From assembly GCA_900299295.1 (NCBI GenBank), contig OMJH01000017.1, forward strand, positions 1 through 50,354: 50,354 nucleotides of DNA, written 5' to 3'. Every line of letters starts with the position of its first letter. Within the stretch, counting starts at the first letter, position 1. Below, one piece after another: positions 24,675 through 38,863 of this stretch. The stretch comes from Bacteroidota bacterium. Its GTDB lineage: Bacteria; Bacteroidota; Bacteroidia; B-17B0; Aurantibacillaceae. The notes under the pieces are model-generated. The model did not search any database. It saw only the letters and a program-made list of their open reading frames with translations, and had not been told where the DNA came from. Both the position numbers and the translations under genes were made by a program.

Positions 24675-26081
24675 TTATTTTACAGTTGACGGACAAACAC
24701 AAGCTGTAGTTGGTAAACCTGCCTTTTGCATTGCGGCGAATCCACCCTTAATATCAATCAAATTATCAAATCCACGTGACTTTAATATCGACATAGCAAT
24801 GACGCGTCGGTAACCGCCTGCACAATGGACGAAATACGTTTGATTTTTATTCAGGTTAATTGTCCAGTCGTTGATATAATCGAGAGGTTTGTTTTCTGCT
24901 CCTGATAAATGTTGCGCATCATGCTCTCCTGGCTTCCGAACATCCAAAACTTTAACGGACTCTTTTTCTATTTTATTTTTTAATTCATCTGCTGAAATTG
25001 CATCAAGAGACGATGTCTCTCGCCCTGAATCTTTCCAAGCCTGAATTCCTCCATTCAAAAATCCAATTGAATTGTCGTAACCAACTCGTGATAAACGCAT
25101 AATCGTTTCTTCTTCCCTGCCTTCGGGAGTAACGAGCAAGATCGCGTGTTGTAAGTCAGGAATAAGTGCTCCAACCCAGGGGGCAAACTGCCCGTCCAGC
25201 CCAATAAAAATTGAGTTGGGAATATGCGAAGAACTAAACGCTTCATTATTTCTTACATCCAGAATAAGAGCGCCTGTTTCATTTGCCAATCGCTCAAAAT
25301 CTTCCGGATTCAATGGAATATTCCCTCTTTCTACAACCTGATCGTAAGAAGAATACCCTGATTTGTTCAAAGCGGCATTTTTTGGAAAATATTTTGGTGG
25401 TGGTAAAATTCCGGTTGTTACTTCTCGTATGAATTCCTCCTTTGAAATAGACTGAAGTGCGTAATTAACCTTTAGCTGATTTTCAAGTGTGTCAAAAGTA
25501 TCCTTGCTTAAATTTTTTCCACAAGCACTTCCGGCACCGTGCGCAGGATATACAATGATGTGTGGAGGTAAATTCATGATCTTATTGCGTAGTGAATCAT
25601 ATAACATACCTGCTAAATCATCCTGTGTTAGGTTAGTGCTGACAGTTAAATCGGGGCGACCGACATCACCAATAAAAAGCGTATCACCCGTGAAGATGCA
25701 ATATTCCTTGCCTTTCTCATCAAATAGAAGAAAGGAAGAGGATTCCTGTGTATGTCCGGGTGTATGAAGTAAACGAATTTTAATTTTACCAACCCAAAAT
25801 TCTTCATTGTCTTTTCCTTGGTGAATTGAAAAACCGGTATCCGCGCCCGGACCAAAAACAATCGATGCGCCGGTTTTGGATGCCAAGTCAACATGTCCAC
25901 TAACAAAATCTGCATGGAAATGCGTTTCGAAAACGTATTTTATTTTCAATTTCTCTTTTTCTGCGCGATCAAGGTATGGCTTGGTTTCTCTTAACGGATC
26001 AATAACTGCAGCTTCGCCTTCCGACGAAATGAAATAAGCACCTTGAGAAAGGCAACCTGTATAAATCTGTTCAATTTTCAT
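24675..26081 (-). CDS. Persulfide dioxygenase fused to two rhodanese domains (Blh/ETHE1-like)
   Basis: Seen: 468 residues. The metallo-beta-lactamase domain (about 1-245) has THFHADFVSGH (His54, His56, Asp58), HTPGH (His110) and FTGDTLFIGDVGRPDL (Asp133), matching the single-iron His/His/Asp site of ETHE1. Rhodanese domain 1 (about 258-355) has no Cys at its loop (TPEGREEE, about 318-325). Rhodanese domain 2 (about 362-460) has an active HCAGGYR loop with Cys420. Known: these enzymes oxidise glutathione or low-molecular-weight persulfide to sulfite; rhodanese moves sulfane sulfur. Last gene of the operon behind a BigR-like repressor and a TauE-type exporter, which fits disposal of sulfide as sulfite. 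Confidence 0.92.
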   Translation of the reverse strand: MKIEQIYTGCLSQGAYFISSEGEAAVIDPLRETKPYLDRAEKEKLKIKYVFETHFHADFVSGHVDLASKTGASIVFGPGADTGFSIHQGKDNEEFWVGKIKIRLLHTPGHTQESSSFLLFDEKGKEYCIFTGDTLFIGDVGRPDLTVSTNLTQDDLAGMLYDSLRNKIMNLPPHIIVYPAHGAGSACGKNLSKDTFDTLENQLKVNYALQSISKEEFIREVTTGILPPPKYFPKNAALNKSGYSSYDQVVERGNIPLNPEDFERLANETGALILDVRNNEAFSSSHIPNSIFIGLDGQFAPWVGALIPDLQHAILLVTPEGREEETIMRLSRVGYDNSIGFLNGGIQAWKDSGRETSSLDAISADELKNKIEKESVKVLDVRKPGEHDAQHLSGAENKPLDYINDWTINLNKNQTYFVHCAGGYRRVIAMSILKSRGFDNLIDIKGGFAAMQKAGLPTTACVCPSTVK

Positions 26082-26092
26082 ATTTTATTTTT

Positions 26093-26905
26093 TTAGTTAA
26101 TCAATTCTTTAACCAATATTACACTGCCAATTATAAGCGAAACCCAACCAAATATCGGCCGGAGACGCTTGCCTGCGATATACCCGGAAACAAACCTACC
26201 GATAAAAATTCCGGCTATCGATAATACACTTACACAAAATATAAATTTCCAGTCAATCGCACAATGATGTAAGGCGCCTAAAAACCCTACCATTGAATTC
26301 ACTGAAATAATAATCAGTGATGTTCCGATTGCTTTTTTCATGGGTATGCGTAAAAAATTCACCAAAACCGGAATAATCATAAAACCACCTCCCGCTCCCA
26401 CAAACCCGGAAATAAAACCAACCAAAACTCCCATGATCGCAACCATGGGCACTTTAAAAGGTGTATTAAATACCTCAGCAAACATGATGTCCTTGTTTTT
26501 TTCATTCCTTTTTCTGCTAATCATACTTATGGAGGCAAAAAGTATTAAGACAGAAAAAACAATCAGGACCACGCTCTCCTTTTTTAACTCTATTTGATTT
26601 ATCTGAATAAAAACATCAGGTAAAGATGGCATAATCCATTGGCGGGTTACATAAATTGAAAACATGGAAGGAAGTGCAAAAAGTAGCAAAGCCTCTGCTT
26701 TAAAATCACCGGATCGAAGGCAAGAATAAGACCCAAACAGTGAAGTCAGTCCGACAATAAAAAGAGAATAAGCACTTGCCTCAAGCGGTGCTATAGAAAA
26801 AACGTAAACAAGGACTGGCATTGCCAGTATTGAACCACCTCCCCCAACCAATCCGAGTAAAATCCCGATAACAACAAAAAGAAAATATCCCACTACTTCT
26901 TGCAT
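26093..26905 (-). CDS. TauE/SafE-family sulfite or sulfur-anion exporter
   Basis: Seen: 270 residues and about eight transmembrane helices. Both half-repeats carry the family glycine motif: GLVGGGGSILAMPVLVYVF in the first half and GFVGAGGGFMIIPVLVNFL in the second. Known: TauE/SafE proteins move sulfite, sulfoacetate or related anions across the inner membrane. It overlaps the ArsR-type gene by 13 bases and sits 11 bases before the persulfide dioxygenase gene, so export of the sulfite made by that enzyme is the simplest role. Confidence 0.9.
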   Translation of the reverse strand: MQEVVGYFLFVVIGILLGLVGGGGSILAMPVLVYVFSIAPLEASAYSLFIVGLTSLFGSYSCLRSGDFKAEALLLFALPSMFSIYVTRQWIMPSLPDVFIQINQIELKKESVVLIVFSVLILFASISMISRKRNEKNKDIMFAEVFNTPFKVPMVAIMGVLVGFISGFVGAGGGFMIIPVLVNFLRIPMKKAIGTSLIIISVNSMVGFLGALHHCAIDWKFIFCVSVLSIAGIFIGRFVSGYIAGKRLRPIFGWVSLIIGSVILVKELIN

Positions 26906-27195
26906 ACCGACTTATCACATTTAATAATACATTTTACGATGCCGAATATCTGTGGGTTTTTTAATGTATAAAATATTTGCTTTCCGTTTCTGCGGACAAC
27001 AACAAGACCTTTGGATTTAAGATTATTTAAATGGTGGGATGTCAAACTTTGTTCGCAACCCATATAATCCGCAATTTCATTAACCGAAACAGAATTTCTG
27101 CTGGCCAACAAACACAAAATTTTCAATCGAATCGGGTTGGCGACTGATTTCAGCACCTCCGTTACCCTGTTCAATGTTTTTTCTGATTGTTCCAT
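26893..27195 (-). CDS. ArsR/SmtB-family repressor, BigR/YgaV/SqrR-like persulfide sensor
   Basis: Seen: 100 residues, winged helix. Core PIRLKILCLLASRNSVSVNEIADYMGCEQSLTSHHLNNLKSKGLV, with the wing VVVRRNGKQIFYTLKN. Cysteines are at 28, 47, 89, 93 and 98. Cys28 in LKILCLL and one of the C-terminal cysteines align with the pair that forms a disulfide or polysulfide bridge in BigR, YgaV and SqrR. The ELCVCD metal box of ArsR/SmtB is not present. Known: those proteins release DNA when sulfide persulfidates the cysteines. A perfect palindrome covers the promoter 12 nt upstream, so autorepression is likely. First gene of the operon. Confidence 0.87.
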   Translation of the reverse strand: MEQSEKTLNRVTEVLKSVANPIRLKILCLLASRNSVSVNEIADYMGCEQSLTSHHLNNLKSKGLVVVRRNGKQIFYTLKNPQIFGIVKCIIKCDKSVCKK

Positions 27196-27271: not shown

Positions 27272-28738
27272 TTAATTGATATTTATGACGGGACGGAAAC
27301 CAATGAAAGGACAAGGAATTATACCTAATGGAAATTCAGTAAAATCATTGTCTCGAATACGGAGAAATTCTGAGCTACTATTCCAGTTCCCGCCCTTTAC
27401 AGAAAAATGTCCTTTACGGTCAACAACCATTTCTGATACATTTCCTGCCATATCATATAACATATAAGGATTTGCTGGATATATCCCGGCCTTGGTTGTA
27501 AACGTATTTAATTCTCCCTTATGGGTTTTGATATGTCCGTTGGTAACTGTTTCTGAATGTTGACCAAGTAAAAAATCAAAATCATTTTGCTGGGTTTCTT
27601 TAAAGTTTGCTTCAAAGCGATGATGTAAAATACCCGATTTAATTGTGCCAGAAAAAGTCCCATATTCGATGTGAGGCCGACCACCCGCGGCGGCCCTTTC
27701 CCATTCACCTTTATTTGGAAGGCGAACAATAATTGAACGTGAAGCTTCTGCAGAGGCAGATATTACCTCCTGCATCCACTTGCAATACAAATTAGCGCCT
27801 TCTGGAGAAATAAAAACAATTGGATAATCGGAAAATTCCTTTCCTGTTAAATAACGCTCGAAAAAGTCTTTGTCATGTTCACTCAGCAAGGTACCAAACG
27901 AGCCATCAAGATGCGGACGTGCCGTTTCATATTCATCTTCTCTACCTTGCAGGAGAAGATCCAAAAGAAAAACATTATACTCTCCAACCGTTACTTCAGT
28001 AGGCCACATGTAAAATGGCACTTGAAAAGTTTTATCGTTATAAGGTCCCTGGGCGCCGGGAATCAAAGGCAAACGCTGAGTGATTTCTGTAGTAATTTTT
28101 GCTGCCAGTTTCTCTCGCTCCTGTTTTACAAAAGTTCGTTTTTGAACTTCATCCGAAATAACTATTTTTTTTGCGCTCAAAACTGTTTCTTTATTATCTG
28201 ATTCAGAAAGCAATAAACTGCCATGAGCTGCTGAATCCGATAAAGAAGAATTTAAATTAATTTGAATCCCGTTTTTTAATTCGCTTTTGGTGAATTTGAC
28301 CGTGCCTGATTTGATTTTTTTATTTTCAACATACGTTCCCGTAAAATAATCATTCGCCGATTTGCTTTCTGTCGTTTGTTCATAATCATTGGTTTTTAAA
28401 TTTGAGTTTGTATTGGACGAGGATGATACGTTGTTTATCTTATTTTGATTGGTAGCCGTTGAAATTTTATCTCCTTCCTCGGTATTAAATTGCAACAGAT
28501 AAATTAGGGTTGCGATACCGGAAAAGATTAAGGCGCTGCTAAGTCCCCATACCCATGGTAACCTGTAAAATGCAGTTCTTTTTGAAGCAGACACATGAAC
28601 CTTTCCCGATGTCCAATTCTGACTGAAAACATGCTGGCTGGCAGCATCAAAAAGCTGATCATTCGCGGGACTTGCTTGATCAAGTTCTAAAAAACTTTGA
28701 CGTAATAACTCGTCGATTGATGGTCCTGAGCCTTCCAT
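27272..28738 (-). CDS. Membrane protein with anti-sigma-like N-terminus and FGE/SUMF1-like domain
   Basis: Seen: 488 residues. An acidic helical N-terminus (1-45) and a basic stretch (KVHVSASKRTAFYR) lead into one transmembrane helix (about 61-82), predicting N-inside. A low-complexity Ser/Asn/Thr linker (about 85-240) follows, then an FGE-sulfatase-type domain (about 240-488): TEVTVGEYNVF, PIVFISPEGANLYCKWM, VRLPNKGEWERAAAGG, YDMAGNVSEMVVD, VKGGNWN, GFRPV. The catalytic cysteine region after GGSW is replaced by SSSEFLRIRD, so formylglycine formation is unlikely. Known: catalytically dead FGE-like folds serve as structural parts, for example GldJ/GldK in T9SS. It starts 5 bases after a sigma factor gene, so an anti-sigma or sensor role is inferred. 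Confidence 0.72.
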   Translation of the reverse strand: MEGSGPSIDELLRQSFLELDQASPANDQLFDAASQHVFSQNWTSGKVHVSASKRTAFYRLPWVWGLSSALIFSGIATLIYLLQFNTEEGDKISTATNQNKINNVSSSSNTNSNLKTNDYEQTTESKSANDYFTGTYVENKKIKSGTVKFTKSELKNGIQINLNSSLSDSAAHGSLLLSESDNKETVLSAKKIVISDEVQKRTFVKQEREKLAAKITTEITQRLPLIPGAQGPYNDKTFQVPFYMWPTEVTVGEYNVFLLDLLLQGREDEYETARPHLDGSFGTLLSEHDKDFFERYLTGKEFSDYPIVFISPEGANLYCKWMQEVISASAEASRSIIVRLPNKGEWERAAAGGRPHIEYGTFSGTIKSGILHHRFEANFKETQQNDFDFLLGQHSETVTNGHIKTHKGELNTFTTKAGIYPANPYMLYDMAGNVSEMVVDRKGHFSVKGGNWNSSSEFLRIRDNDFTEFPLGIIPCPFIGFRPVININ

Positions 28739-28743
28739 GTTAA

Positions 28744-29334
28744 CTAACTTGCTTTGTTAATATTTATTACTTTTCCTGTTTCGCTTACCGCTTCAACATG
28801 CAAATCCTGCATACGCACGGAAAGCATGTTTTTCAGACGGGAATAATACACTTTAAGTTGTTCTTCCGGTTTATTTACGTAACGTGCAATTTCACTGTAT
28901 GCCACTTCCTGACTTCTCATTAACAACAAAATTCGTTGCCAATCTTCCAATTTATCCAGCTCTGCACGAAGACGACTGAGCATTGGGTTTGCAATGCCTG
29001 AACCTGAATTTACCGCAACAAAATTTCTACGTGTTTCGTCTAAAGGAATAAAAGTAGCACCCTGATGCCGTGTATTCTCGTCTCGAATATGATTCTTCAG
29101 GAAATTAATAAACATCCTGAAAATAAAGGAAGCAAATTTCTGCTCATTTTCAAATTGATAGCGCGAGTAAACTTCCTGAACCTTGTAAATGGTTTTATAA
29201 ACCAAATCCCATCCTGCATCTTCATTAATTTTGTAAACAGCCTTACTATAACCCAACAACTTACGGCCGTACTGCTCAAACAACCAGGAAATGGCTTTGT
29301 CTTTGTCTTTTAATATGTCTAATATCTTTTCCAA
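28744..29334 (-). CDS. ECF-like RNA polymerase sigma factor
   Basis: Seen: 196 residues. Region 2 spans about residues 15-85 (WLFEQYGRKLLGYSKAVY, FASFIFRMFINFLKNHIRD) and region 4 about 128-175 (LDKLEDWQRILLLMRSQEVAYSEIARYVNK, VYYSRLKNML). The start is a TTG at 29334: an in-frame TAG lies just upstream and no ATG precedes region 2. Known: group IV sigma factors with this layout are held by membrane anti-sigma factors encoded next to them. The downstream gene, 5 bases away, encodes a membrane protein with a suitable cytoplasmic stub. Region 4 shows some divergence but keeps a helix-turn-helix. Confidence 0.82.
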   Translation of the reverse strand: MEKILDILKDKDKAISWLFEQYGRKLLGYSKAVYKINEDAGWDLVYKTIYKVQEVYSRYQFENEQKFASFIFRMFINFLKNHIRDENTRHQGATFIPLDETRRNFVAVNSGSGIANPMLSRLRAELDKLEDWQRILLLMRSQEVAYSEIARYVNKPEEQLKVYYSRLKNMLSVRMQDLHVEAVSETGKVININKAS

Positions 29335-29420
29335 AGCAGGATACTAAGAATCACAGAATAATAAACACCACAAGGTAACACGAATTTCCAATGAATTAAA
29401 ATTATTTAGATGAAAGGGAA

Positions 29421-30356
29421 TTAATCTTTGGGCACATGAAGCTGAAATAATCTGCGCTCCTGACGCTGAAATTCAATACTTAACGCTTCGGGTTCATTGT
29501 TCATGTATGTTAAAATTGAATTGATTCTGGAAATATCCTGGCTGGATAATTTGCCAGGTTCCTTCATCAGCCGTGCTACCTCGAGCATATCTCCACTGGC
29601 CAGTTCCTGATATTTTTCAAGCAACAGAATACCCGATTGCACATAATTTGAATCGTTCTCAAAAAACCCGACCGATTTCATTATTTTCATTCCTTTTGTA
29701 GAAGAAACTATTAGTTCTAGTCTTGCCTTTTCGATTTCATCCGCCTTTTTTGTATTAATAGCATCGGCTAAATTGTTAAAATCGCGAAAAGCCCTGAAGT
29801 AGTTTAAAAAAACAGATTCAGTATAGTTATTGAGTTTACGGATACGCTCGAGCTGATCCTGAATTTTTTCATTCTCCTGAATGGAAAGGTGATTATTTGA
29901 TGCGAATTTCTTCTGAACCGTCCTCAATTCCAGAAACATTGCATTAATTCTTATTTCAGCACTATCCTCTGCTAAAAAGAACCTTTCCATCGCCTCAAAA
30001 TTTTCCGCAGAACTTCTTTTTAAGTTTACCACCTGCTTGAAATCCATATTGTACATGCTGCGTTCACGCTCAAGAATTTCAAGCGTTTCTCGTCGTAATT
30101 TATCATCACCGGAATAGGAAGGCATACGTTTTAAAATTGCCATTGATGAATCCAGCTGACGTATTATAGCTAGCCTGGTAGATTCAACTTCGTCAGCTAT
30201 TTCGGTATGCACCACCGCAGTTATAAAACGCTTGGTTTTCTCGAAGATTAATCCGTGTTCACTTAAAACAGTATTGTAATATTGAATTGCAGTAACCTGA
30301 CCATAACCACATAAAAAACTACAAACAATAAGGGGTAAAATTATTTTTTTTATCAT
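29421..30356 (-). CDS. Secreted helical protein, possibly LIC11966-like surface protein
   Basis: No firm family. Seen: 311 residues; signal peptide of about 19 residues (IILPLIVCSFLCGYGQ). The rest is almost wholly alpha-helical and charged, with coiled-coil-prone stretches (about 60-130 and 170-250). The start YYNTVLSEHGLIFEKTKRF and the overall build resemble Bacteroidota proteins named after Leptospira LIC11966; I hold this loosely. No catalytic motif, lipobox or T9SS domain is seen. It lies 86 bases upstream of the sigma factor gene on the same strand, so it could be co-transcribed with that pair or be separate. Confidence 0.6.
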   Translation of the reverse strand: MIKKIILPLIVCSFLCGYGQVTAIQYYNTVLSEHGLIFEKTKRFITAVVHTEIADEVESTRLAIIRQLDSSMAILKRMPSYSGDDKLRRETLEILERERSMYNMDFKQVVNLKRSSAENFEAMERFFLAEDSAEIRINAMFLELRTVQKKFASNNHLSIQENEKIQDQLERIRKLNNYTESVFLNYFRAFRDFNNLADAINTKKADEIEKARLELIVSSTKGMKIMKSVGFFENDSNYVQSGILLLEKYQELASGDMLEVARLMKEPGKLSSQDISRINSILTYMNNEPEALSIEFQRQERRLFQLHVPKD

Positions 30357-32589: not shown

Positions 32590-33720
32590 ATGAAATTACA
32601 AAAGATTTTATCTCGTATTTTGATTTACTTCGGTTTTTCTGCTGCATTGGCTCAACCTGCCAAATACAGTAATGAATTTCTGGGAATCGGTGTCGGCGCG
32701 CGAGCCCTCGGAATGGGTTATACCAATATTGCTTCGGTGAACGATATGACAAGCGGCTACTGGAATCCGGCAGGCCTTATGGGCATTCAATCAAATTTAC
32801 AGGCCGGAATGATGCACTCGGAATATTTTGCAGGAATAGCAAAATATGATTATGGGTCAATCGCTGCGAAGTTGGATAGTTTAAGTACCGGAAGTATCAG
32901 TTTTATCCGCTTCGGAATTGATAATATTCCCAACACAACAGATTTAATTGACGCCAACGGAAATGTGGATTACGATCGTATATCCACCTTTAACGCCACC
33001 GACTTCGCTCTCATGCTCACCTACGCTCAAAACATCGAACGTATTCCTGGACTTGATTTCGGAACAAATGTAAAGATCATCCGTCGTACCATAGGTGACT
33101 TTGCAGGTGCCTGGGGATTTGGATTAGATGCAGGCGCCACCTACAAATTCAAAAATTTTAAATTCGCTGCTGTAGGTAAAGACATTACCGGAACCTTCAA
33201 TGCTTGGTCCTATAACCTCCCTCCAAATATGATTTCAACCTTTCAGGTCACAGGAAATGAAATTCCTGTTAACAACGTTGAGGTTACGGTACCTCGCCTA
33301 ATTTTAGGAACAGCTTACACAAAAAATGTTTTCAAAGACAAAATTGCGTTAACCGGTGAAATTAATCTTACCAACACCTTTGATGGCAAGCGAAACGTGC
33401 TGATTAAAACAAATTCACTTAGCGTTGATCCTACCATGGGAATTGAAATTGGCTATATTAAAACGATATTTCTGCGTGGTGGAATTAACAACATTCAAAA
33501 AATAACAGATGTAACCGGAAAAGAAGTAACTAGCGTTCAGCCAAATTTCGGCGTTGGACTCAAGTATAAAATATTTTCTTTGGATTATGCTATGACCAAT
33601 TTCAATAATTCAACTGTTTCAACCTACAGTCATGTGTTTTCACTGAAACTTGATATAAATAAGTTCCATATGGACTTACATCTACATCATCACCATCATT
33701 TAAACAATCAGCACCATTAA
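32590..33720 (+). CDS. PorV/PorQ-family outer-membrane barrel with His-rich tail
   Basis: Seen: 376 residues; signal peptide of about 21 residues ending ALAQ. The mature start FLGIGVGARALGMGYTNIASVNDMTSGYWNPAGL is the FadL/PorV-type hatch region common to PorV and PorQ proteins. A 14-strand-type barrel pattern follows, ending with the strand VFSLKLDINKF, whose Phe359 resembles a barrel beta-signal. Residues 360-376 form an extra tail with nine histidines in 17 residues. Known: PorV carries T9SS cargo from the translocon to the sortase PorU. The gene is 19 bases before a PorU2-like peptidase, so a carrier or partner role is likely. Whether it is PorV itself or a paralogue is uncertain. Confidence 0.82.
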   Translation: MKLQKILSRILIYFGFSAALAQPAKYSNEFLGIGVGARALGMGYTNIASVNDMTSGYWNPAGLMGIQSNLQAGMMHSEYFAGIAKYDYGSIAAKLDSLSTGSISFIRFGIDNIPNTTDLIDANGNVDYDRISTFNATDFALMLTYAQNIERIPGLDFGTNVKIIRRTIGDFAGAWGFGLDAGATYKFKNFKFAAVGKDITGTFNAWSYNLPPNMISTFQVTGNEIPVNNVEVTVPRLILGTAYTKNVFKDKIALTGEINLTNTFDGKRNVLIKTNSLSVDPTMGIEIGYIKTIFLRGGINNIQKITDVTGKEVTSVQPNFGVGLKYKIFSLDYAMTNFNNSTVSTYSHVFSLKLDINKFHMDLHLHHHHHLNNQHH

Positions 33721-33739
33721 AAAATTCAGAATAACTCTT

Positions 33740-36700
33740 ATGAAGAAATTTATTTTTACTTTTCTCCTCGCACTCTTTTCATCTGCTTTATTTTCACAGT
33801 CCTACACTTACGGGAACGAGTGGATAAACTACAGTCAGCAATATTTTAAAATAAAACTTTATAAAGAGGGAATTTACAGAGTAGACTCTTCAACACTGGC
33901 CAATGCAGGTATTAATCTTAATTCAGTAGACGTCAGAAATTTTCAAGTATTTATTTATGGGCAAGAGCAATTTATTTATGTTTCAGATAATAACACAAAC
34001 AATAAGTTAAACTCCGGCGAATACATTGAATTTTACGGCAAGCAAAATGACTGCTCCTTTGACTCAAGCATGTACTATAATATAACTTTTGTCCCTAATC
34101 CATATTTTAGCATTGTTCAAGATACGGCTACAGCCTTTTTAACCTGGAACAATTCCATCAATAACAAAAGATTTACAATTTTAACAGACACAAGTTTTAC
34201 CAATTATACTCCTGCACCTTATTTCATAAGCCAATCTGTTTATACAAAAAAGGCAGATTACTTTAGTGGACGATATAATTTTGTGAATCAAACCGACCCT
34301 CGTTTCACTTCTTGCGAAGGCTGGGGAGATTATGGTCCTGGATTAGGCGCTTCCAAATCATTTAAAGTTCCTACACCATTTGCATTCGCAGCAGGAGGTA
34401 CAAGTTTAATTACCGCCTCCTATATGAGTAGCTCGGCAAACTACCAATTACAAAATAATCCTTTGGGAGACCACCACTTTCGCGTAACATGGAAAGACAA
34501 TAACAACAACTATAATATTTTCGCCGATACTGTTTTTTGGGGTTTCCAACCCTTTAAAAGCATGACCTCTGTCAGCTCTGCTTTGTTACGCGATACAACT
34601 GAGTTTGTACTCACCAGTATTAATGAGCCGGGTTATTCTTCAAATTCCTCTGCCGTAAATTATTTTTCGATTCAATATCCAAGAACTTACAATATGAGTG
34701 GAGCAAATCAGTTTACACTTTATATACCTGATGCAACCGCTCCTATTACAAAATCATTTTCTCAATTCAGTAATTTTTCACACTCAAGCCAGGCAACTGT
34801 AAAAGTTTTCGATTTGACTAACGGCAATATGGTTTTTCCTAATATGAATGGAAATACAGGTAAATTTCTATTAAACAATGGCAGTGGAATAAAAAAAGTG
34901 CTCCTTACCTCAAGTGATAACGACATTCAGGTTACTGGCCTTGAAAAAGTAAATGGTACAGGCACATTTATTAATTATCTTAATCAGGGCAACAAGGATT
35001 CTGCCTTTGTAATCGTTACACACGCTAAATTTTGGAACGAGGCTAATGCATACAAAACTTATCGTGAATCTGCAGACGGGGGTAGTTTTCAAACCGTGGT
35101 CGGAGAAATAAATGATTTATACGATCAGTTTGGATACGGCATTAAGAAACACCCAAAATCGGTTCGGAATTTCATGAAAATGCTGATTGACACATTCAAC
35201 ACCCAGCCCAAGTACTTGTTCTTAATTGGCAAATCAGGATACGGAATTAACGGATTCTGGAATCCTGCGGCCTATGAGGCGAATTTGGTTCCTTCGTGGG
35301 GATATCCTCCGTCCGATAACCTTATTTTAGCCGGACTCAATGGAACATTTTTAGAGCCAGTGGTACCTACTGGCCGTATAGCTGTCACCAAACCTGTAGA
35401 GGTGCTCGATTATTTGGATAAGGTTCACGAACACGACACAACTCAACTTGCGAAATGGGAGAAAAACGTTGCACACTTTGTTGGGGGTCTTTATCAAAAT
35501 GAAATTGATCTGTTTAACTATTACATGACAAATTATGCCGGAATAATTTCCGGCCAGTACTTTGGTGCCAATGTTAACACTTTTATTAAAACCACTTCAT
35601 CGCCAATTCAAACCTCTGTGCCTGACTCTGTAATTAATTTAATCAACAACGGAGTAAATTTAATGACGTTTTACGGCCATAGTTCTAATCAGAGTTTTGA
35701 TTTCAATCTCAATGATCCCACAAAATTCGAGAACAAAGGCAAATACCCATTATTGCTGTCCAATAGTTGCTATACAGGCGACATCCATCAAATAGATACT
35801 TTTAGCCTCAGTGAAAGATATGTCTTGACTAAAGACAAAGGTGCAATTGCTTTTATTGGAAGTACAAAAACAGGGATCGCACAATTACTGGCAATTTATT
35901 CCGAAAATTTTTATCAACAGCTAACATCAGCAAGTTACGGACAAGGAATCGGGGATATTTCAAAATCGGCAATCGCAAATACACAGTATGTAATGCAATA
36001 CCCGGATTTTGTTGAACAAATTACGTGTATGGAAATGACCTTGCACGGTGACCCCGCAGTCAAACTCAACCGGCATACCAAACCAGATTATGCTATTCGA
36101 AATGAGGACCTCATTTGTAAAACAGATATTTATCCGGACAGCATCGGTATCAATTTAAACATTTATAATCTAGCCAGGGCAATTAGCGATTCGTTCAGGG
36201 TAGTTATTACTCGAACATTCCCAGACGGTTCTAAAGAAATTTTCATAGATACCGTAAATGCACCCTACTATAAAACAACCTTAAGTTATTTCATCCCGTT
36301 GAATCCCGATAAAGGAGCCGGATTGAATTATTTTAATGCAGTTATTGATGATATCAATCGAATCGACGAAGAAGATAATACAATCAACAATAAAACCGGC
36401 AACATTCCACTTTTAATTAATGGCAATGATATTGTTCCGGTTTATCCCTATGAATTTGAAGTTTTACCGATTGCATCAAGCATAAAACTAAAAGCATCAT
36501 CCGTGGATCCATTCGCGAGTCCAAAAAATTATATTTTTCAATTAGACACCTGCGACAAATTCATAAATCCGATTGCCTCAACAACCGTAACAGCCTCGCC
36601 CGGCGGAGTAATTGAATGGAACGCTCCCTTGTTAAATGCAGGACTAACTGATTCTATCGTCTATTACTGGAGGGTGAGCAGAGACAGTACAAGCCCACAA

Positions 36701-38863
36701 CAAAGTTACATCTGGAGAAAAAGTTCTTTTCAAATAATTGACAGCACATATGGTTGGGCACAAGCTCATTTCGATCAATTTCAAAATAATAAGTTTCAAT
36801 TTGTAAATTATTTAAAAACGACACGTGATTTTGAATTCGCAAATAACATTAATACAATCAATGTACATCAGGGGTTCTATCCTTTTTGGGGTGGAAGTGT
36901 ACAACCAGTTGATTTAATCTTCAACTACAATAATTCGCTTGAAAAAGCGGCCTCTCAGTCAGATAATGGATGGACTTTTTTCGTAATCGATTCTACAACC
37001 GCGTTATTTGATTCAAACAAAGTTGTAGGTAATACCTACAAATTCGGCTCAGATAATTATTGTTTATGTGGCGATATCACCTTTTATGATTTCGGAAGTA
37101 ATGGCCCTTTAAACCTTCCTTTCGCTACTAACACAACGAGCATAGGAGACAGTATTACCAGCTTTCTGAATTCAATACCGCCAAATAAATGGCTTCTTGG
37201 TTACAGCAATAATTACTGGCGCGGTGTCTATAACGGCGGCTTTGGAAACGGGCCCCAGTTTAGTAATCAGTTCTATTCGGCCCTTGACAACTTTGGAGTG
37301 CCGGGCACTTCATTGCTGATGAACCTAATCGACACCCAGGCCGTTGTATTTTTAGGAAGAAAAGGCCTAGCTCCGGGAACTGCACATACGGTAATTGGCG
37401 CAAACAAAAAATCTATAATTGATTTTTCAGATTCAATTGCGGCACACTGGAACAGAGGATACATCACCTCGCCGTTAATTGGTCCTTCTCACAACTGGAA
37501 AAGTTTGCATTGGCGTTACTCTACTCTTGAACCAAATAGCCAAGACTCGTTGAAATTAACCGTATATGGTATTACATCTACCGGTATTTCCAATCCGCTA
37601 TTTACCTTGAACCAAACTACCTTGGACGTGACCAATTTATCATCATTAGTGGATGCACAAACCTATCCCTATCTTCGACTTGTTGTCGAACTGGGAGACG
37701 ATAGCCTGCGAACTGCTCCGCAACTTAAACGATGGCATGTACTCTTTGATCCGGCTGCTGAAGGAGCTCTAGCCCCTGCTGAAGGATTTACAATCGTATC
37801 CGACTCCTTGCAGGAAGGAGACTCAATCCGAATTGTAATGCCGTTCAAAAACATCAGTAATTTCATGTTCCGTGACAGCCTTGTCCACACGTATTGGATT
37901 GAAGACAACGCAAATATTCCTAACCCACTTCCTTACAAAATGCACCGTGATTCTTTGCTTCCAGACCAAATAATTTTTGACACCATCCGCATTAGCACCT
38001 TAGGCTATCCCGGAAATATTGCCTTGTGGATTGATGTTAACCCGTCTACAAACCCGAGATATCAATATGAGAAGGAGCGATTTAATAACATTGCGCGAAT
38101 CCCTTTAAATGTAAGTCGTGACCTTGTTAATCCTATTCTTGACGTCACATTCGATGGAGTGCATATTCTCAATAAAGATATTGTTTCATCAAAGCCCGAA
38201 ATTTTAATCACGCTGAAAGATGAAAACAAATTCCTTGCAATTAATGATACTGCTGATTTTGAAGTTTACCTTACCAAGCCAGGCACAGTCAGTGAAACAA
38301 GAATTTGGTTCTGCCCGGGATGCAATATAAATTACACCAACATACAAATGCAATTCGAACCCGCCCAATTGCCAAACAACAGTTGTAAGGTGTTATTTAA
38401 ACCTGATCTGACAACTGACGGAATTTACACACTGAGAGTTCGTGCTAAAGACCGCAGCAGTAACGAAAGCGGGGCAAACGACTATCAAATTCAATTTGAA
38501 GTTATCAATCGTTCAACCATAACCCAAGTGATGAATTACCCGAATCCGTTCAGCACAAACACAAAATTTGTCTTCACACTAACGGGCAGCGAAGTTCCTG
38601 AAACGTTCATGATTCAAATTATGACAGTAAGCGGGAAGGTAGTACGCGAAATAAAGAGGGAAGAATTAGGATACATACATGTCGGACGCAATATCACCGA
38701 ATACAGCTGGAATGGAACCGATGAATTTGGTGATCGACTTGCAAATGGTGTCTATTTGTACCGTGTAGTCGCACGACTGAATGGAGAAAAAATTGAAAAT
38801 CGGAAATCTGCCGCAGATGATTACTTTACCAAGGAGATCGGCAAGATGGTGATTATTCGTTAA
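33740..38863 (+). CDS. Peptidase C25 (gingipain-type), PorU2-like T9SS sortase candidate
   Basis: Seen: 1707 residues. Signal peptide of about 19 residues (FTFLLALFSSALFSQ). A beta-rich N-terminal region (about 20-415) is followed by the C25 caspase-like domain (about 420-790), with catalytic His647 in YGHSS and Cys677 in SNSCYTG. Then come Ig/CARDB-like beta modules (about 800-1590), and finally a FlgD/T9SS-like C-terminal domain with YPNPF, WNGTDEFGDRLANGVYLYRV. Known: PorU (about 1150 residues) removes T9SS sorting domains and attaches cargo to A-LPS; longer homologues are called PorU2. Size and partner gene favour PorU2. Convergent with a T9SS-type nuclease gene only 9 bases away. Confidence 0.85.
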   Translation: MKKFIFTFLLALFSSALFSQSYTYGNEWINYSQQYFKIKLYKEGIYRVDSSTLANAGINLNSVDVRNFQVFIYGQEQFIYVSDNNTNNKLNSGEYIEFYGKQNDCSFDSSMYYNITFVPNPYFSIVQDTATAFLTWNNSINNKRFTILTDTSFTNYTPAPYFISQSVYTKKADYFSGRYNFVNQTDPRFTSCEGWGDYGPGLGASKSFKVPTPFAFAAGGTSLITASYMSSSANYQLQNNPLGDHHFRVTWKDNNNNYNIFADTVFWGFQPFKSMTSVSSALLRDTTEFVLTSINEPGYSSNSSAVNYFSIQYPRTYNMSGANQFTLYIPDATAPITKSFSQFSNFSHSSQATVKVFDLTNGNMVFPNMNGNTGKFLLNNGSGIKKVLLTSSDNDIQVTGLEKVNGTGTFINYLNQGNKDSAFVIVTHAKFWNEANAYKTYRESADGGSFQTVVGEINDLYDQFGYGIKKHPKSVRNFMKMLIDTFNTQPKYLFLIGKSGYGINGFWNPAAYEANLVPSWGYPPSDNLILAGLNGTFLEPVVPTGRIAVTKPVEVLDYLDKVHEHDTTQLAKWEKNVAHFVGGLYQNEIDLFNYYMTNYAGIISGQYFGANVNTFIKTTSSPIQTSVPDSVINLINNGVNLMTFYGHSSNQSFDFNLNDPTKFENKGKYPLLLSNSCYTGDIHQIDTFSLSERYVLTKDKGAIAFIGSTKTGIAQLLAIYSENFYQQLTSASYGQGIGDISKSAIANTQYVMQYPDFVEQITCMEMTLHGDPAVKLNRHTKPDYAIRNEDLICKTDIYPDSIGINLNIYNLARAISDSFRVVITRTFPDGSKEIFIDTVNAPYYKTTLSYFIPLNPDKGAGLNYFNAVIDDINRIDEEDNTINNKTGNIPLLINGNDIVPVYPYEFEVLPIASSIKLKASSVDPFASPKNYIFQLDTCDKFINPIASTTVTASPGGVIEWNAPLLNAGLTDSIVYYWRVSRDSTSPQQSYIWRKSSFQIIDSTYGWAQAHFDQFQNNKFQFVNYLKTTRDFEFANNINTINVHQGFYPFWGGSVQPVDLIFNYNNSLEKAASQSDNGWTFFVIDSTTALFDSNKVVGNTYKFGSDNYCLCGDITFYDFGSNGPLNLPFATNTTSIGDSITSFLNSIPPNKWLLGYSNNYWRGVYNGGFGNGPQFSNQFYSALDNFGVPGTSLLMNLIDTQAVVFLGRKGLAPGTAHTVIGANKKSIIDFSDSIAAHWNRGYITSPLIGPSHNWKSLHWRYSTLEPNSQDSLKLTVYGITSTGISNPLFTLNQTTLDVTNLSSLVDAQTYPYLRLVVELGDDSLRTAPQLKRWHVLFDPAAEGALAPAEGFTIVSDSLQEGDSIRIVMPFKNISNFMFRDSLVHTYWIEDNANIPNPLPYKMHRDSLLPDQIIFDTIRISTLGYPGNIALWIDVNPSTNPRYQYEKERFNNIARIPLNVSRDLVNPILDVTFDGVHILNKDIVSSKPEILITLKDENKFLAINDTADFEVYLTKPGTVSETRIWFCPGCNINYTNIQMQFEPAQLPNNSCKVLFKPDLTTDGIYTLRVRAKDRSSNESGANDYQIQFEVINRSTITQVMNYPNPFSTNTKFVFTLTGSEVPETFMIQIMTVSGKVVREIKREELGYIHVGRNITEYSWNGTDEFGDRLANGVYLYRVVARLNGEKIENRKSAADDYFTKEIGKMVIIR

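Follow-up and report, generated by a model that had tools for sequence, protein, structure and literature searches.

Membrane anti-sigma factors of the RseA/RskA/RsiW class, the CnrY class and FecR share a cytoplasmic sigma-binding stub, one transmembrane (TM) helix, a periplasmic sensor and autoregulation of the operon. In Bacteroidota, the Dma anti-sigma factors of Bacteroides, whose sigma partners are extracytoplasmic function (ECF) factors of group ECF21, span to the outer membrane (PMC13088901). SigP of Porphyromonas gingivalis, likewise an ECF sigma factor, is described as driving the genes of the type IX secretion system (T9SS) together with PorXY, and the abstracts of the two reports mention no PorK-like anti-sigma partner (PMC4800418, PMC8265659). 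PorK/GldK, the lipoprotein of the T9SS ring, and GldJ carry a periplasmic domain with the fold of the formylglycine-generating enzyme (FGE) that lacks the catalytic cysteine. Here, a sigma factor gene and its downstream partner were analyzed in a 50,354-nt contig of a Bacteroidota bacterium (OMJH01000017.1, assembly GCA_900299295.1), hereafter the window. The pair probably forms an autoregulated ECF sigma/anti-sigma switch with a PorK-type sensor that controls envelope and T9SS genes. It appears to be an envelope-sensing switch that has not been described before. Within the open-access literature, no anti-sigma factor with an FGE or PorK-like domain was found, and an earlier description elsewhere is possible.

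The two genes lie on the minus strand with a gap of 5 bases, and the sigma gene begins with a TTG start codon. The following features were assigned:

29348..29380, minus strand: promoter-like element in front of the sigma operon (about 33 nt conserved, with the core TGTTACCTTGTGGTGTT at 29364-29380)
28744..29334, minus strand: divergent ECF sigma factor of 196 amino acids with regions 2 and 4 only (TIGR02937, PF04542, fold of a homologue)
27272..28738, minus strand: predicted membrane anti-sigma factor of 488 amino acids (open reading frame (ORF), domains, topology, alignment and model)
28544..28738, minus strand: cytoplasmic stub of residues 1-65, predicted to bind the sigma factor (conserved across partners; model of the L119 homologue)
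28487..28543, minus strand: TM helix, residues 66-84 (hydropathy and positive-inside rule; helix 61-84 in the AlphaFold2 (AF2) model)
28160..28480, minus strand: predicted disordered periplasmic linker, residues 87-193 (AF2 predicted local distance difference test score (pLDDT) of about 30-40; not conserved in alignment A3)
27275..28060, minus strand: periplasmic PorK/GldK-type FGE-fold sensor domain, residues 227-488 (PF03781; matches to PorK structures; no conserved catalytic cysteine)

The gene order and anatomy described in the initial annotation, from the sigma gene and the 5-base gap through the stub, the single TM helix and the disordered linker to the FGE-fold domain, agree with these coordinates and domains.

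Regions 2 and 4 of the sigma factor were detected by TIGR02937 (E 2e-9) and PF04542 (E 3e-4), with scores just under the curated cut-offs (37.2 vs 42.9 bits and 21.1 vs 24 bits, respectively), and a Foldseek search with the model of a homologue matched SigH, AlgU, RpoE and SigW at a probability of about 1.0. The protein is a divergent ECF sigma factor (sigma70 group IV), and the modelled homologue is structurally of the ECF type. A search of 100 relatives with the sigma factor gave a sharp break between about 22 loci at E <=1e-24 and other ECF sigma factors at E >1e-11, the sole exception being one copy cut by a contig end. The distribution of this subfamily is patchy: it occurred in 19/87 genomes of the family (about 22%) and in 23/395 sampled genomes of the class (6%).

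A related-locus search with the partner protein as query returned no matches, and the loci were obtained by a sigma-based search and alignment. The resulting survey comprised 66 non-redundant Bacteroidia loci, from records labelled Flavobacteriales, Chitinophagales, Sphingobacteriales and Bacteroidales. Conservation of the gene order in relatives had been proposed as a check on the pair, and in all complete loci the partner gene lay directly after the sigma gene on the same strand, at a spacing of -50 to +11 nt. The few loci without a partner all end at a contig edge; a genome of the same genus (G001) has a readable, truncated partner. The pairing is not due to chance, as every complete locus of the sigma subfamily has it; several genomes contain two such pairs. 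Distances between sigma factors correlated with those between stubs (Mantel r 0.47, reached in 0 of 999 permutations), but phylogeny confounds this correlation, and it lends the pairing weak support only.

Two loci of genome G091 (L049:5827-8074 and L050:3998-6032) encode a sigma factor of another ECF subfamily (174-178 amino acids) followed by a one-TM PorK-like protein with a different stub (MDK..RIDELFN..). The PorK-like sensor thus appears to have been recruited by at least two sigma families.

The periplasmic part of the partner was exchangeable. Among the 66 loci, 48 partners carried one or two PorK-like domains, and the remainder had a DUF4097 'toastrack' (7), MG2/A2M with CarboxypepD_reg (5), a DUF3471-like domain (1) or no recognised domain (4), or were truncated (1); two DUF4097 partners and one A2M partner were called by Pfam, and the other members of these two groups by similarity to them. 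Only the stub, the TM helix and the sigma factor were constant throughout. This constancy amid swapped sensors is the best evidence for an action of the stub on the sigma factor. The same observation bears on the alternative of a partner with a structural role in the envelope, like PorK/GldK, that is merely co-transcribed with the sigma gene and anchored by its stub. The PorK-like domain and the presence of T9SS genes in the operon in one subclade would suit such a component, but persistence of the stub while the periplasmic domain becomes DUF4097, A2M or nothing makes it very improbable. Three partners (L072, L081 and L135; 208-255 amino acids) consist of the stub and TM helix followed by a disordered basic tail, with no sensor domain.

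The window partner has one hydrophobic helix, with positive charges on the cytoplasmic side, and the same stub and single TM helix with inside positive charges were found in the partners of the 66 loci. A gene encoded beside the sigma gene, whose product has one TM helix and its N-terminus inside, has the layout of a membrane anti-sigma factor. The consensus of the stub was ..ELDxLLxxxxL....M..A..VF....KE..LL.KL. It matched no Pfam family in the 63 members scanned and no PDB chain by sequence.

In locus L119, the TAA stop of the sigma gene abuts the partner ATG in frame, and the sigma factor and stub could therefore be joined into a single chain in which TAA counts as a residue. AF2 modelling of this fused chain (86 alignment rows), a modelling device that makes no claim on the organism, gave a mean pLDDT of 87, a predicted template modelling score of 0.77 and about 90 for the stub helices. 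The stub of the window partner modelled without a sigma factor had a pLDDT of 54-71; the rise in the presence of sigma is only suggestive because a different protein and alignment were used. By Foldseek TMt, the modelled sigma arrangement was closer to ECF sigma factors bound by their anti-sigma factors, SigW/RsiW (0.51) and CnrH/CnrY (0.45), than to the holoenzyme (0.31-0.37). The model suggests that the stub binds the sigma factor, and such binding would inhibit it.

Binding could also serve activation. FecR-type N-terminal tails can be needed for sigma activity, and the partner might similarly be a positive co-factor. It would carry the membrane-held sigma factor or be required for the sigma factor to work, and would release the two as an active complex. 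Co-conservation of the pair, conservation of the stub and the model fit activation as well as inhibition. However, where an autoregulated ECF sigma gene is directly followed by the gene for a one-TM partner with a short stub, that partner is most often an inhibitor, and a positive role is considered unlikely. An inhibitory partner remains the preferred reading.

Next, the upstream regions of the sigma genes were aligned, which revealed a TGTTACC-N5-GTGTTATA element about 40 nt before the start codon. The element or a close variant stood immediately upstream of the sigma gene in 52/68 loci; in 13 further loci, other genes precede the sigma gene in its operon, and the element stands ahead of the first of them, at a distance of 1.4-3.8 kb. 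It thus heads the sigma operon in 65/68 loci, the exceptions being L053 (where the contig ends), L055 (weak) and L061 (none). The conserved footprint ends at about +33, a promoter-like length, and distant relatives of the sigma factor have TGTAACC at the same place. Four of these distant relatives (L171, L195, L196 and L197), with TGTAACC...CATATA upstream, are followed by genes for soluble-looking proteins of 185-200 amino acids, and may represent a branch of this system with cytosolic partners.

The 17-nt core was then searched in 28 genomes with the sigma factor and 28 without it, with the reversed pattern as control. In genomes with the sigma factor, 63 sites were found (reversed control, 14), compared with 14 in genomes without it (reversed control, 24). 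Of 62 distinct sites, 21 were at the sigma gene and 41 elsewhere. Among the latter, 25/41 lay just upstream of genes called as signal-peptide genes by a crude rule, compared with 1/14 in genomes without the sigma factor (Fisher p 5e-4), where 11/14 sites fell within ORFs.

The element preceded genes for PorP/SprF (L261 and L220, with a weaker site in L274), PorE (L264, and L231 with three sites), a protein with a T9SS type A sorting domain (L207), a GldJ/K-like FGE-fold protein (L266) and OmpA-family proteins (L268). In L122, PorP/SprF, a PorP-like protein, a DUF4139 protein (MuiA family), the sigma factor and the anti-sigma factor are encoded in one operon. Three genomes encode a small lipoprotein (..SCAIHNKFPFICFLPSC..) among the predicted targets or as a neighbour (L230, L272 and the downstream gene in L060), and a small Cys-rich protein of about 150 amino acids is among the predicted targets of two members of the clade of the window (L206 and L267).

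These patterns are consistent with recognition of the element by the sigma factor itself. Another regulator might instead bind it and control the sigma operon and envelope genes, with the sigma factor having a different regulon. The two strongest boxes are 5 nt apart, which is unusual for -35 and -10 boxes, and the -10 box has to be a weaker TAA at +26 to +28. In addition, one of the exact sites in the genome of the window (G000:C161:7913-7929; L201) lies 196 nt before another ECF sigma gene, possibly reflecting a sigma cascade or chance. Against another regulator, the element exceeds chance only in genomes with the sigma factor and nearly always heads the sigma operon, its 33-nt span is promoter-like, and the distant sigma relatives have the TGTAACC variant. 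A separate regulator therefore seems doubtful, and direct reading by the sigma factor is preferred.

Several observations weigh against the proposed switch. The T9SS targets were predicted in relatives (G001, G013, G078 and L122) and not in the genome of the window. This incomplete genome had three exact sites (reversed control, 0), only two of them besides that of the sigma gene; the one not at L201 lies 244 nt before a secreted-protein gene. A scan of the same genome at two mismatches gave no excess (26 sites vs 33 in the control). The copy in the window (29364-29380, minus strand) is the weakest of the sigma-gene sites, with a position weight matrix score of 14 against a mean of 30. The crude rule for signal-peptide genes also counts here. 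As for the stub, its sequence resembles none of the known anti-sigma domains (RseA, zinc or FecR N-terminal), its model with the sigma factor matches no PDB entry at E 0.001 (Foldseek), and the chain was fused, so that contact was favoured.

The periplasmic domain of the window partner was detected as FGE-sulfatase (PF03781, E 9e-20). In the AF2 model, the FGE core had a pLDDT of mostly 83-95, and the rest was low (mean 61). The comparison of the predicted structure with FGE and GldK suggested in the initial annotation yielded an FGE fold, with PorK at ranks 1-3 of the PDB matches (Foldseek). Consistently, a profile of 29 partner proteins scored 130 bits against PorK/GldK chains (E 1e-36), compared with only 34 bits against FGE enzymes (E about 2e-7). 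The active-site segment of the window partner, VKGGNWNSSSEFLRIRDNDF, contains no Cys; none was conserved there in 28 aligned relatives, and neither of the two catalytic cysteines of FGE/SUMF1 enzymes was conserved in the 29 aligned domains. The aligned segment of the solved PorK (VVRGGSWKDVARFIRSATRS) also lacks Cys. Because PorK gives the best profile and fold matches and its own segment is Cys-less, the domain is of the PorK/GldK type and not an enzyme. The earlier statement that a catalytic cysteine segment had been replaced was right as to the missing cysteine, but 'replaced' is misleading, since the domain belongs to a type whose solved member, PorK, lacks Cys here as well. The FGE fold itself could suggest a catalytic domain (FGE-like or nonheme-iron) or a glycan-binding one; with no conserved Cys in the active-site segment and PorK/GldK closest by far, this is most unlikely.

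The partner differs from PorK itself, which is an outer-membrane lipoprotein and ring subunit, in that an inner-membrane anchor and a sigma-paired stub precede its domain. It is TM-anchored and no lipoprotein, and it fell short of the GldK/GldJ cut-offs, with 78.9 bits against an equivalog cut-off of 350 bits for PorK/GldK. Like the Dma systems, it joins a Bacteroidota ECF sigma factor to a membrane anti-sigma factor reaching far across the envelope. However, Dma domains run from the cytosol to the outer membrane, whereas in the partners described here the periplasmic domain is soluble (PorK-like, DUF4097 or A2M-like) and the stub has no Pfam match; no Dma-type outer-membrane-spanning domain was found in them by Pfam or model. 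Unlike the RseA/RskA/RsiW, CnrY and FecR proteins, the stub has no Pfam match, zinc motif or FecR domain.

In the proposed switch, the sigma factor would transcribe its own operon from the TGTTACC-N5-GTGTTATA promoter, and the co-translated partner would sit in the inner membrane with its N-terminus inside. The short helical stub would hold the sigma factor away from RNA polymerase while the tethered non-enzymatic PorK/GldK-like domain reads the state of the periplasm. A signal would release the sigma factor, the probable route being proteolysis of the partner, or else a conformational change. The freed sigma factor would then activate itself and genes for secreted and outer-membrane proteins, which in relatives would include PorP/SprF, PorE, T9SS cargo and a GldJ/K-like protein.

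The anti-sigma factor with a pseudo-FGE sensor put forward in the initial annotation gains strong though indirect support from the strict pairing, the stub kept amid sensor swaps, the autoregulatory element and the T9SS genes in the predicted regulon; contact of the stub with the sigma factor is a model prediction, and the sensor is better termed PorK/GldK-type than pseudo-FGE. As to the suggestion that the sensor reports on glycans or T9SS status, the T9SS genes in the predicted regulon favour the latter, and glycan sensing is without evidence. A PorK-like sensor combined with T9SS genes in the regulon suggests, as a hypothesis, that the partner reads the secretion ring. Speculatively, and with rather low probability, the pair may be a T9SS assembly checkpoint. 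In this reading, the PorK/GldK-like domain would contact the secretion ring or proteins associated with it (PorN or the motor), and incomplete, damaged or saturated machinery would alter the state of the anti-sigma factor and thereby free the sigma factor to rebuild T9SS and envelope parts; the same stub would be tied to DUF4097 and A2M-like sensors for other envelope states.

For Bacteroidota other than Porphyromonas, sensing of the T9SS state is largely an open question. Because a secretion-ring fold, a sigma factor, an identifiable promoter and predicted T9SS targets are linked here, such sensing becomes directly testable. The stub would be a previously unlabelled anti-sigma module joined to varied periplasmic sensors, and it should help to annotate many 'SUMF1 family' or hypothetical proteins.

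Around the pair, no neighbouring gene was conserved universally, and operons were clade-specific only. The upstream gene at 29421-30356 (LIC11966 family) and the downstream ArsR operon are not conserved with the pair. About 3 kb from the sigma gene, PorV2 (NF052325) and PorU2 (NF052324), a putative T9SS sortase pair, are encoded at 32590-38863 on the plus strand; the own-genome scan listed no exact TGTTACC element there. The segment at 24675-27195 on the minus strand encodes an ArsR/SmtB-family regulator, a TauE-like permease and an MBL-rhodanese protein, and this operon, which is unrelated to the sigma/partner pair, resembles those for persulfide/sulfite detoxification.
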